From: Heyndrickxia coagulans 36D1
Lineage (GTDB): Bacteria; Bacillota; Bacilli; Bacillales; Bacillaceae_C
Assembly: GCF_000169195.2 (NCBI RefSeq)
Contig: NC_016023.1
Coordinates: forward strand, 2,914,001 to 2,978,000
Length of the DNA: 64,000 bases
Direction of reading: 5' to 3'
Shown piece after piece: positions 5,056 through 36,615 of the stretch (positions within the stretch are counted from its first letter, which is position 1; every line of letters starts with the position of its first letter). The notes beneath the pieces are model-generated. The model had not been told where the DNA came from, did not search any database, and saw only the letters and a program-made list of their open reading frames with translations. The position numbers were made by a program, and so were the translations under genes.

Positions 5056-5084
5056 AATAAAAATAGATGGTAAAATTGGCAAAA

Positions 5085-5335
5085 CCGATGACAAAGAAGA
5101 GTAATTAAGATCCGTGTGAAAAGAGAGGAAATGTCCCGGGCTGAAAACATTTCTGCACAACGGCTTAATGAACGAACACTTTGTAGGTTCTGTCCTGAAC
5201 GGAAATCCAGTAGGGACGGGCGTTACAGGCGTTAACTGTAAAAGTGGAAGCAGACGCTTCAATTAGGGTGGCACCACGGGAATTCAACTCTCGTCCCTTG
5301 TTTATAAGACAAGGGACCGGGGGTTTTTTATTTTA
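5085..5335 (+). promoter_or_regulatory. T-box riboswitch leader of hisS-aspS
   Basis: Stem I closes by ACAAAG with CTTTGT and ATTAAG with CTTAAT, with the usual apical element (AGAGAGGAAATG...GGGCTGAAAA). The T-box sequence AGGGTGGCACCACGGG is at 5265-5280. The terminator GTCCCTTGT/ACAAGGGAC (5293-5317) is followed by a T-run and competes with the antiterminator. The specifier side of the stem I loop contains a CAC His triplet (5177-5179). Uncharged tRNA, most likely tRNA-His, should allow read-through into the synthetase genes. Confidence 0.88.
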
Positions 5336-8657: not shown

Positions 8658-8850
8658 TGAATGAGTCCTGGGGTGTTCGTATATGTTCCTATCGTTTTGA
8701 CCGAACACTTCATTATCGGGGGCCCGGAGTCACCAGACGGCGTGCATGCCCTTTGCGGGGACGCATAAAGCCTGGTGCAGGGCACCCACCTGCTCGAGAG
8801 CGGGATCAAAACAGAGGATTGCAAGAACGGCACGTCCGGGGCTCATTCCA
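8658..8850 (+). ncRNA. bsrA: 6S RNA (bsrA/6S-1 type)
   Basis: A region of about 190 bases that folds end to end: GAGTCCTGG near 8662 pairs with TCCGGGGCTC near 8835-8844, with a large central bulge between the arms. The 5' sequence GTCCTGGGGTGTTCG and the position between aspS and tcdA match the 6S-1 RNA of B. subtilis. 6S RNA binds the sigma-A holoenzyme and mimics an open promoter, lowering housekeeping transcription in stationary phase. It has its own promoter and a terminator. Ends are approximate. Confidence 0.85.
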
Positions 8851-35795: not shown

Positions 35796-35824
35796 TTTAC
35801 AAACCCGCCGGAATTGGATATACT
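35796..35824 (+). promoter_or_regulatory. Strong sigma-A promoter of the yrzI micro-ORF cluster
   Basis: TTTACA (35796-35801), exactly 17 bases, TATACT (35819-35824). The transcript would begin about 28 bases before the first tiny ORF. Confidence 0.8.
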
Positions 35825-35860
35825 TTCCTATGTAAGCAAATTCAAAGGAGGTTGAAGAAC

Positions 35861-35941
35861 ATGGCATACACAATCCTATTTTCTGCAGTTGCAACTGAAC
35901 ATGTTCTGCATCCGCTCCGTATCGGTTTGAATTTGCGCTGA
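35861..35941 (+). CDS. Tiny ORF 1 of the yrzI cluster (26 aa)
   Basis: ATG stands 9 bases after a near-perfect AAGGAGG ribosome site and behind a strong promoter. The peptide starts MAYTILFSAVATEHVL and ends basic (LRIGLNLR). It is followed by two terminator hairpins before yrzI, so it could be a leader peptide or an independent micropeptide. No known family recognised. Confidence 0.55.
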   Translation: MAYTILFSAVATEHVLHPLRIGLNLR

Positions 35942-35960
35942 TTTTTTAACTTGACGCACA

Positions 35961-36000
35961 AGCCGCAGGATGCATTTGCCTGATCCGTGCGGTTTTTTTC
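35961..36000 (+). terminator. Twin terminator, first copy
   Basis: CCGCAGGAT...ATCCGTGCGG stem followed by seven T. It closely resembles the next hairpin. Confidence 0.8.
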
Positions 36001-36005
36001 CGGAA

Positions 36006-36040
36006 AGCCGCGGGATCATGCCTGTCCTGCGGTTTTTTTG
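36006..36040 (+). terminator. Twin terminator, second copy
   Basis: CCGCGGGA...TCCTGCGG stem followed by seven T, 45 bases after the first. Shared GCCGC-GGAT...GCCTG...TGCGG bases suggest duplication. Confidence 0.75.
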
Positions 36041-36063
36041 CGCCCTTAAGGAGGTGGAAAAAT

Positions 36064-36207
36064 ATGACACTCAATTTAATCTTTATTACCGTCACGATTA
36101 AACGGCTGAAAAAGACGGCAGAACAAAGGCAGCGTGATGAAGAAGTTTTCAGGCTGTACGATGAAATGAATGCAAAGCGTGAGGCATTCCAAGCAAGGCA
36201 TTTTTAA
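36064..36207 (+). CDS. yrzI: YrzI-family small protein (47 aa)
   Basis: MTLNLIFITVTIKRLKKTAE begins a short hydrophobic strand or helix, then a charged helix (RDEEVFRLYDEMNAKREAF) follows. This is the pattern of the YrzI family, described as small proteins found in tandem in Bacillus. Ribosome site AAGGAGGTGG is near perfect. From memory, B. subtilis yrzI mRNA carries further tiny ORFs and is cut by the ribosome-associated nuclease Rae1; overproduced YrzI is harmful. No promoter is seen after the twin terminators, so expression may need read-through. Confidence 0.82.
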   Translation: MTLNLIFITVTIKRLKKTAEQRQRDEEVFRLYDEMNAKREAFQARHF

Positions 36208-36242
36208 GCTGAAAAAACACCTGAAGAAAGGAGCGGTTGACG

Positions 36243-36299
36243 ATGGCCCGTTATCAGAAACGTTTGGACTTTATCTTTATGGAGACAGATTCCACCTAG
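36243..36299 (+). CDS. Tiny ORF 3 of the yrzI cluster (18 aa)
   Basis: MARYQKRLDFIFMETDST, with AAAGGAG 9 bases upstream, 35 bases after yrzI. Its place and size resemble the short ORF next to yrzI in B. subtilis whose translation allows Rae1 cleavage. Identity of the peptide with that ORF cannot be shown here. Confidence 0.5.
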   Translation: MARYQKRLDFIFMETDST

Positions 36300-36324
36300 C
36301 AAAACCGGATCAGGGGATGGCGCT

Positions 36325-36384
36325 ATGTTTTTGCATATTTTGATTTTTACCGCTGTTTTCCACAGGCGGAAAAGAAAAAGCTGA
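36325..36384 (+). CDS. Tiny ORF 4 of the yrzI cluster (19 aa)
   Basis: MFLHILIFTAVFHRRKRKS is one hydrophobic segment followed by a strongly basic tail, a design like membrane-acting micropeptides. An AGGGGATGG site lies 7 bases upstream. A small CCGG-based hairpin and TTTTTT follow (36390-36407). Coding status is inferred only from site, length and composition. Confidence 0.4.
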   Translation: MFLHILIFTAVFHRRKRKS

Positions 36385-36615
36385 TGGCTCCGGCCACCGG
36401 CTTTTTTGACATCTATCTATTGAAAAGCATTCTCAATACTGAAATGGGAGAGCGGCGGTCTCTGGGCGTAAAAAATTTCAATTATCTGCCCTGATTTTCA
36501 ATTACAGAGGTGAAAAAAAGAGGCGGAAACAGCATAAAAAACATAAATATCATGGTTTTATGACTATATCATATAAAATCAGGAAACGATAAAATAGAAA
36601 ACCGGGTGTAATTGC
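36385..36615. other. Intergenic region between micro-ORFs and ahpC
   Basis: It holds a small terminator-like hairpin, a Fur/PerR-like TGAAAAGCATTCTCA at 36421-36435 and otherwise AT-rich DNA without supported coding. Confidence 0.45.

Follow-up and report, generated by a model that had tools for sequence, protein, structure and literature searches.

In Bacillus subtilis, the upstream promoter region of yrzI serves as a reporter for the inhibition of protein synthesis (PMC7604286), and yrzI fusions have been in use as a marker for protein-synthesis inhibitors since 2004 (Hutter et al., as cited in PMC7604286). Erythromycin is the positive control for a PyrzI-lux fusion (PMC12837462), and the level of yrzI mRNA is raised when tRNA maturases are depleted (PMC10100781) and, jointly with bmrBCD, in a whiA mutant (PMC10714963). 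The bmrB leader is a proven ribosome-mediated attenuator in the same organism (PMC4191407). Moreover, the candidate direct targets of Rae1 in B. subtilis include S1025, S1024, S1026, and yrzI (PMC10632193), a 234-nt RNA encoded between yrzI and yrhG is associated with Hfq (PMC3574147), and RNA-seq of B. licheniformis gave yrzI a 5' UTR of 301 nt and a 3' UTR of 541 nt (PMC3871023). The yrzI operon and its link to Rae1 are already known in B. subtilis, and the mechanism of its leader is apparently undescribed; no mechanism for the response of the yrzI fusions was found in the accessible literature, nor any description of the yrzI leader or its mechanism in Rfam or the openly accessible literature.

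Layout of the yrzI locus

We analysed a stretch of 64,000 nucleotides from Heyndrickxia coagulans 36D1 (hereafter designated the window, whose numbering is used throughout), in which the yrzI locus has the following features.

35796-35824, + strand: SigA-type promoter, TTTACA (35796-35801), 17 nt, TATACT (35819-35824); from the sequence and homologues
35836-35863, + strand: segment 1, the 5' UTR GCAAATTCAAAGGAG, SD1, and the start-codon region AGAACATG; 5' strand of pairing P1
35845-35851, + strand: SD1, AAGGAGG, the Shine-Dalgarno (SD) of ORF1
35861-35941, + strand: ORF1, leader ORF of 26 codons, MAYTILFSAVATEHVLHPLRIGLNLR; open in homologues, peptide not conserved
35900-35936, + strand: segment 2, the anti-SD region at the 3' end of ORF1 and 3' strand of P1, with the pieces CATGTTCT (35900-35907), CTCC (35915-35918), and TTTGAATTTGC (35926-35936)
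35907-35913, + strand: x element for pairing P2, TGCATCC, inside segment 2
35962-35999, + strand: terminator T1, segments 3 and 4, arms 35962-35971 and 35983-35992, then a T run; from folding and comparison
35968-35974, + strand: GGATGCA, loop and upper 5' arm of T1, the P2 partner of x
36007-36039, + strand: terminator T2, arms 36007-36015 and 36025-36033, then a T run; from folding and comparison
36048-36054, + strand: Shine-Dalgarno of yrzI, directly 3' of T2
36064-36207, + strand: yrzI, 47 aa, YrzI family (TIGR02413, under the curated cut-off)
36243-36299, + strand: ORF3, 18 aa, MARYQKRLDFIFMETDST, S1025-type, with Glu-Thr in place of the conserved Glu-Lys
36325-36384, + strand: ORF4, 19 aa, MFLHILIFTAVFHRRKRKS, hydrophobic-basic, with only a weak SD
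36375-36407, + strand: operon terminator T3, overlapping the end of ORF4

The promoter, the 26-codon ORF, yrzI, and the 18- and 19-codon ORFs described in the first-pass annotation of this DNA are thus all in place, as are its two look-alike terminators, T1 and T2, which lie 45 nt apart and are backed by both folding and comparative data; they are missing from the output of a simple terminator scan. No independent yrzI promoter, which would have spoken against that annotation, was found between T2 and yrzI. None of the Rfam covariance models matched the leader over its gathering score; elsewhere in the window are a T-box leader at 5079-5301 (RF00230) and a 6S RNA at 8662-8846 (RF00013). ORF4 runs at its end into the 5' arm of T3 (36325-36407), so that a ribosome finishing ORF4 could affect termination there.

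Assignment of the window YrzI to TIGR02413 was made at 26.6 bits (E 5e-6, residues 1-38), under the curated cut-off of 47.05 bits, which YrzI also missed in the genome search; membership is nevertheless little in doubt from synteny and alignment. Indeed, the 47 residues align at 52-98% identity within the genus (98% with YrzI of H. coagulans DSM 1), homology is detectable across the family, and homologous loci have the same leader and downstream ORFs.

Each of the five genomes of the genus keeps the whole layout, which is also widespread across the order (Bacillales); this argues that it did not arise by chance. Of 397 genomes of the order, 171 contain TIGR02413, and the promoter, SD1, and ORF1 were parsed automatically in 109 of 138 non-redundant yrzI loci, part of the remainder (e.g. 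L059) having been missed through the pattern alone. The recurrent order is promoter, leader ORF, terminators, one to five yrzI copies, an S1025-type ORF, and a further small ORF, with two predicted terminators in 75 and three in 22 of the 109 leaders. Typical spacings are 26 nt from the -10 hexamer to SD1, 54 nt from the ATG to the anti-SD, 18-19 nt from there to the ORF1 stop, 26 nt on to T1, and then 14 nt to T2, which is followed by yrzI at a median distance of 48 nt. A B. subtilis-like locus, its group being inferred, has about 233 nt from promoter to T1, which fits the 234-nt RNA between yrzI and yrhG (PMC3574147). When the genomes were searched with the leader pattern, 30 of 31 matches preceded yrzI operons and the other was a chance match in a coding gene. 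Tandem yrzI copies (2-5) stand behind a single leader in many genera (L011, L012, L013, L016, L053, L123, and others).

Across homologues the promoter keeps an extended -10, TGGATATAMT, together with an upstream A-tract and a TTACCANTGTAA-like initial sequence. The bases from -10 to about +10 (35819-35840) are unusually conserved in yrzI promoters (TATAMTTACCANTGTAAG, with the inverted repeat TTAC-N3/4-GTAA); this stretch and the A-tract could serve as an operator or be held by a constraint on the 5' end of the RNA.

An open leader ORF without a conserved peptide

From the start codon to the anti-SD, the ORF1 frame was open in all 107 unique loci, the +1 and +2 frames being open in 16 and 33, a count biased by the requirement of at least 15 codons for ORF1 candidates, shorter ones having been left out. 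The ORF1 stop lies 14-26 nt past the anti-SD (10th-90th percentile), against 6-146 nt for the other frames. Conservation at the peptide level was considered and rejected: dN/dS in 14 Rossellomorea loci was about 1.9 for ORF1, 0.10 for yrzI, and 0.13 for ORF3, and the anti-SD motif is read in three frames, as Y-S-T, I-R-P, and F-D-L in 55, 19, and 17 of 91 loci, respectively. No common codon run, arrest motif, or peptide motif was found in ORF1 across the homologues. Since the frame is kept open and the peptide is not kept, it is the translation of ORF1 that appears to matter, and not its product.

In the B. subtilis-like loci L049, L050, L065, L068, L070, and L148, ORF1 is longer and contains a conserved stretch, GGAAGAGTCCGTGTCC (FSLWKSSCPS), that may be a partner of T1 if the register is shifted.

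Competing pairings in the leader

Pairing P1 joins the SD1 region (consensus GGAGGUCGAAU) to the complementary UUCGACC near the 3' end of ORF1. Both sides have changed together in B. subtilis-like loci (GGCUGAAU:AUUCAGCC), in L048 (GGUUGAAC:GUUCAACC), and in L133 (GCUGAACGAAA:UUUCGUUCGGU). In the window P1 is long, consisting of GCAAAUUCAAA:UUUGAAUUUGC, GGAG:CUCC, and AGAACAUG:CAUGUUCU, with a predicted energy of -27.5 kcal/mol, and as a bare fold it is unexceptional relative to shuffles (z -1.0).

Pairing P2 is formed by an element that overlaps or adjoins the anti-SD, and by the loop and upper stem of T1. Its versions include CUAUUCG:CGAAUAG in many Bacillus, CAUUC:GAAUG in Rossellomorea, ACACAAA:UUUGUGU in L138, and CGUUCAACC:GGUUGAACG in L048; the window lineage has the compensated UGCAUCC:GGAUGCA where the sister species Weizmannia acidilactici (L003/L008) has UCAACAUU:AAUGUUGA. 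P1 and P2 share at least 3 nt of segment 2 in 93 of 96 loci, and P2 takes up at least two bases of the T1 stem in 100 of 104. The window x element sits between two P1 helices, not over the anti-SD core, which makes the mutual exclusion of P1 and P2 less strict in the window. No P2 was found at the standard place in the B. subtilis-like group, for which a shifted partner, CCGUGUC:GACAUGG, is only suggestive.

Within a species the stem of T1 resembles that of T2, and the two vary in concert (core G/G in 40 loci, A/A in 24, mixed in 6); consequently the 3' arm of T1 can pair with the 5' arm of T2; their likeness could come from duplication. In the window this cross pairing (T1 3' arm, 35983-35992) is the predicted optimum at -21.2 kcal/mol, compared with -16.0 for T1 and -20.5 for T2, and the optimum fold of the twin region includes it in 52 of 92 loci.

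Each locus's own segments were compared with segments from other loci in 10,000 permutations, which ignore phylogeny and so inflate the z-scores of all three pairings: P1, -15.3 kcal/mol for own versus -13.4 for cross-locus segments (n = 101, z = -9.3); P2, -7.4 versus -5.4 (n = 92, z = -9.9; n = 68 and z = -7.0 without the majority motif); and T1 3' arm:T2 5' arm (n = 84, z = -7.8), with 0 of 10,000 permutations as low in any of the three, and with z = -8.7 for P1 and -8.2 for P2 in 57 divergent representatives (below 72% yrzI identity) used to limit the effect of kinship. The control pairing x:T2 loop gave no signal (z = 0.2), nor, as expected, did SD1:T1 loop. Despite the relatedness of the loci, the many different compensated versions argue that the pairings are real. 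At the level of sequence, it may be concluded that ORF1 is kept open and that P1, P2, and the cross-complementarity of T1 and T2 are conserved.

A probable ribosome-mediated attenuator

The leader has two features of an attenuator, namely, an apparently translated ORF with its own SD before intrinsic terminators and a covarying alternative pairing that competes with a terminator; a third, greater read-through when translation of the leader is slow, would fit, indirectly, the response of the yrzI reporter to protein-synthesis inhibitors in B. subtilis. We regard 35831-36060 as probably a ribosome-mediated transcription attenuator of the yrzI operon, in which the leader's own ribosome-binding site is segment 1. 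P1 would form between segment 1 (5' UTR, SD1, and start codon) and segment 2, which lies at the 3' end of ORF1; segment 2 could alternatively pair with segment 3 (T1 loop and upper 5' arm) to form P2; segment 3 would otherwise close T1 (3:4), whose 3' arm may also pair with the 5' arm of T2. Under prompt translation, the ribosome would cross ORF1 and mask segment 2, T1 would form, and transcription would end. Without initiation, P1 would close, with T1 again forming and transcription ending. A ribosome held early in ORF1 would cover segment 1 and leave segment 2 free, so that P2 would form and weaken T1; the 3' arm of T1, thus freed, would then join the 5' arm of T2, with both terminators failing and yrzI, ORF3, and ORF4 being made.

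We infer that P2 lowers termination because it overlaps the T1 stem, and in view of the published yrzI reporter and expression data; the three-state logic, the direction of the switch (stall to read-through), and the roles of the peptides are presumptive as well. With the initiation region as segment 1 and no conservation of the ORF1 peptide, the leader would sense slow elongation itself, and not an amino acid or an arrest peptide. The chances seem to us evenly balanced that it is a Bacillales-wide, peptide-independent sensor of ribosome transit, in which the leader SD and the terminator loop compete for one 3' element and two coupled terminators are switched off only by a ribosome that is detained during initiation or immediately afterwards. 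The first-pass annotation's proposal of attenuation tied to leader translation is strongly supported, by the covariation and, for the link to translation, by the published B. subtilis reporter data; its "stalling in ORF 1" should not be taken to mean a specific arrest peptide, since the ORF1 peptide is without purifying selection.

The pairings P1 and P2 could instead mainly govern the translation of ORF1, or that of a terminated leader RNA which is stable and works as a small RNA or mini-mRNA, as in type I toxin mRNAs, where a distant 3' element masks the SD; T1 and T2 would then be plain terminators. The sequestration of SD1 is indeed the most conserved of the pairings, the 234-nt RNA of the locus is Hfq-associated in B. 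subtilis (PMC3574147), and some loci have a T1 loop similar to part of SD1, as a decoy would be. A peptide that is neither conserved nor under purifying selection is, however, unlikely to matter as a product, and the restriction of the element to yrzI operons (30 of 31 matches), and its nearness to yrzI (T2 to yrzI, median 48 nt), fit control in cis; we therefore consider these explanations unlikely.

Somewhat less probable still is that the tandem terminators insulate or lower yrzI, that ORF1 is spurious or decaying, and that antibiotics act at the promoter or through mRNA decay by Rae1. The conserved TTACCANTGTAA-like sequence beside the -10, a possible operator, and the standing of yrzI mRNA as a Rae1 target in B. 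subtilis (PMC10632193) would agree with it, but it provides no reason for the covariation of P1 and P2, and ORF1 is open in 107 of 107 loci with a fixed stop position. As for a specific arrest peptide or an amino-acid-sensing leader like ermC, bmrB, or trpL, the position, the general layout, and the bmrB precedent in B. subtilis (PMC4191407) bring it to mind; the homologues have no common codon run or peptide motif, though, the conserved element is read in three frames, and dN/dS is about 1.9 in Rossellomorea, which make it very improbable. Translation-dependent attenuation thus remains the preferred reading, and it would offer a direct cause for the response of yrzI fusions to protein-synthesis inhibitors; the reporter fragments may contain responsive elements besides the leader.

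Rae1 and the downstream ORFs

ORF3 (MARYQKRLDFIFMETDST) stands at the position of S1025, whose homologue in a B. subtilis-like locus is the 17-residue MFKMELLMHYTMEKDQV. Its homologues, in 93 loci, end in VEKDST-stop or similar, and the window ORF follows their pattern, (V/M)EKD(S/T)x-stop, apart from a Thr in place of the Lys: Glu-Lys codons are present in 72 of the 93, and the site reads GAG-ACA (Glu-Thr) in the window and in H. coagulans. In work of 2017 by Leroy, Rae1 is said to cut S1025 at a Glu-Lys pair, and cleavage in B. subtilis is reportedly in S1025, the third ORF, and not in yrzI itself. Rae1 targeting in the present organism is not supported: Rae1 is encoded by the host (PF05991, 203 bits, G000:C1:1273468-1273956), but Glu-Thr at the Glu-Lys site makes cleavage doubtful, and it may have been lost in this lineage. 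The variant (36243-36299) is a natural case for the codon specificity of Rae1. For the toxicity that the first-pass annotation ascribes to YrzI, no source was found in the accessible literature.

The Rae1-site codons (36279-36299 and, among homologues, e.g. L021 and L054) could fold into a hairpin, GGTGGA-loop-TCCACC, that would carry the cut site in its loop; it is present in many loci and inseparable there from codon conservation. A small ORF with an SD occupies the place of ORF4 in 65 of the 93 loci with ORF3. The micropeptide operon may be under double translation control, exerted through an attenuator in front and, in the third ORF, a site of the Rae1 type.

Comparison with known systems

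The closest counterpart is the B. subtilis yrzI operon (S1024-S1026, a target of Rae1/YacP), which has the same YrzI family, S1025-type ORF, promoter, leader ORF, and tandem terminators; it differs in that ORF3 of the window has Glu-Thr, whereas the B. subtilis-like and most other loci have Glu-Lys. The bmrB leader of bmrCD likewise combines a leader ORF, a terminator, and a response to protein-synthesis inhibitors, and is also a Rae1 target. The bmrB terminator, however, lies inside its own coding region and rare codons matter to it, whereas the first pairing segment of the yrzI leader is its own SD, and its terminators are downstream and doubled. With the E. coli trp attenuator (1:2, 2:3, 3:4) the leader shares three competing pairings and, as proposed here, would share a choice dependent on translation and an off state without translation. 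Unlike trp, it is without regulatory codons, its segment 1 is the initiation region, its segment 3 is mainly the terminator loop, and a second terminator is coupled through look-alike arms; the yrzI leader thus suggests an attenuator design needing neither a regulatory codon nor an arrest peptide. Finally, as in the translational attenuators of ermC and cat-86, a leader ORF would sense drug-slowed ribosomes, but there a stall within the leader frees a downstream SD, whereas the output of the yrzI leader would be its transcription terminators.
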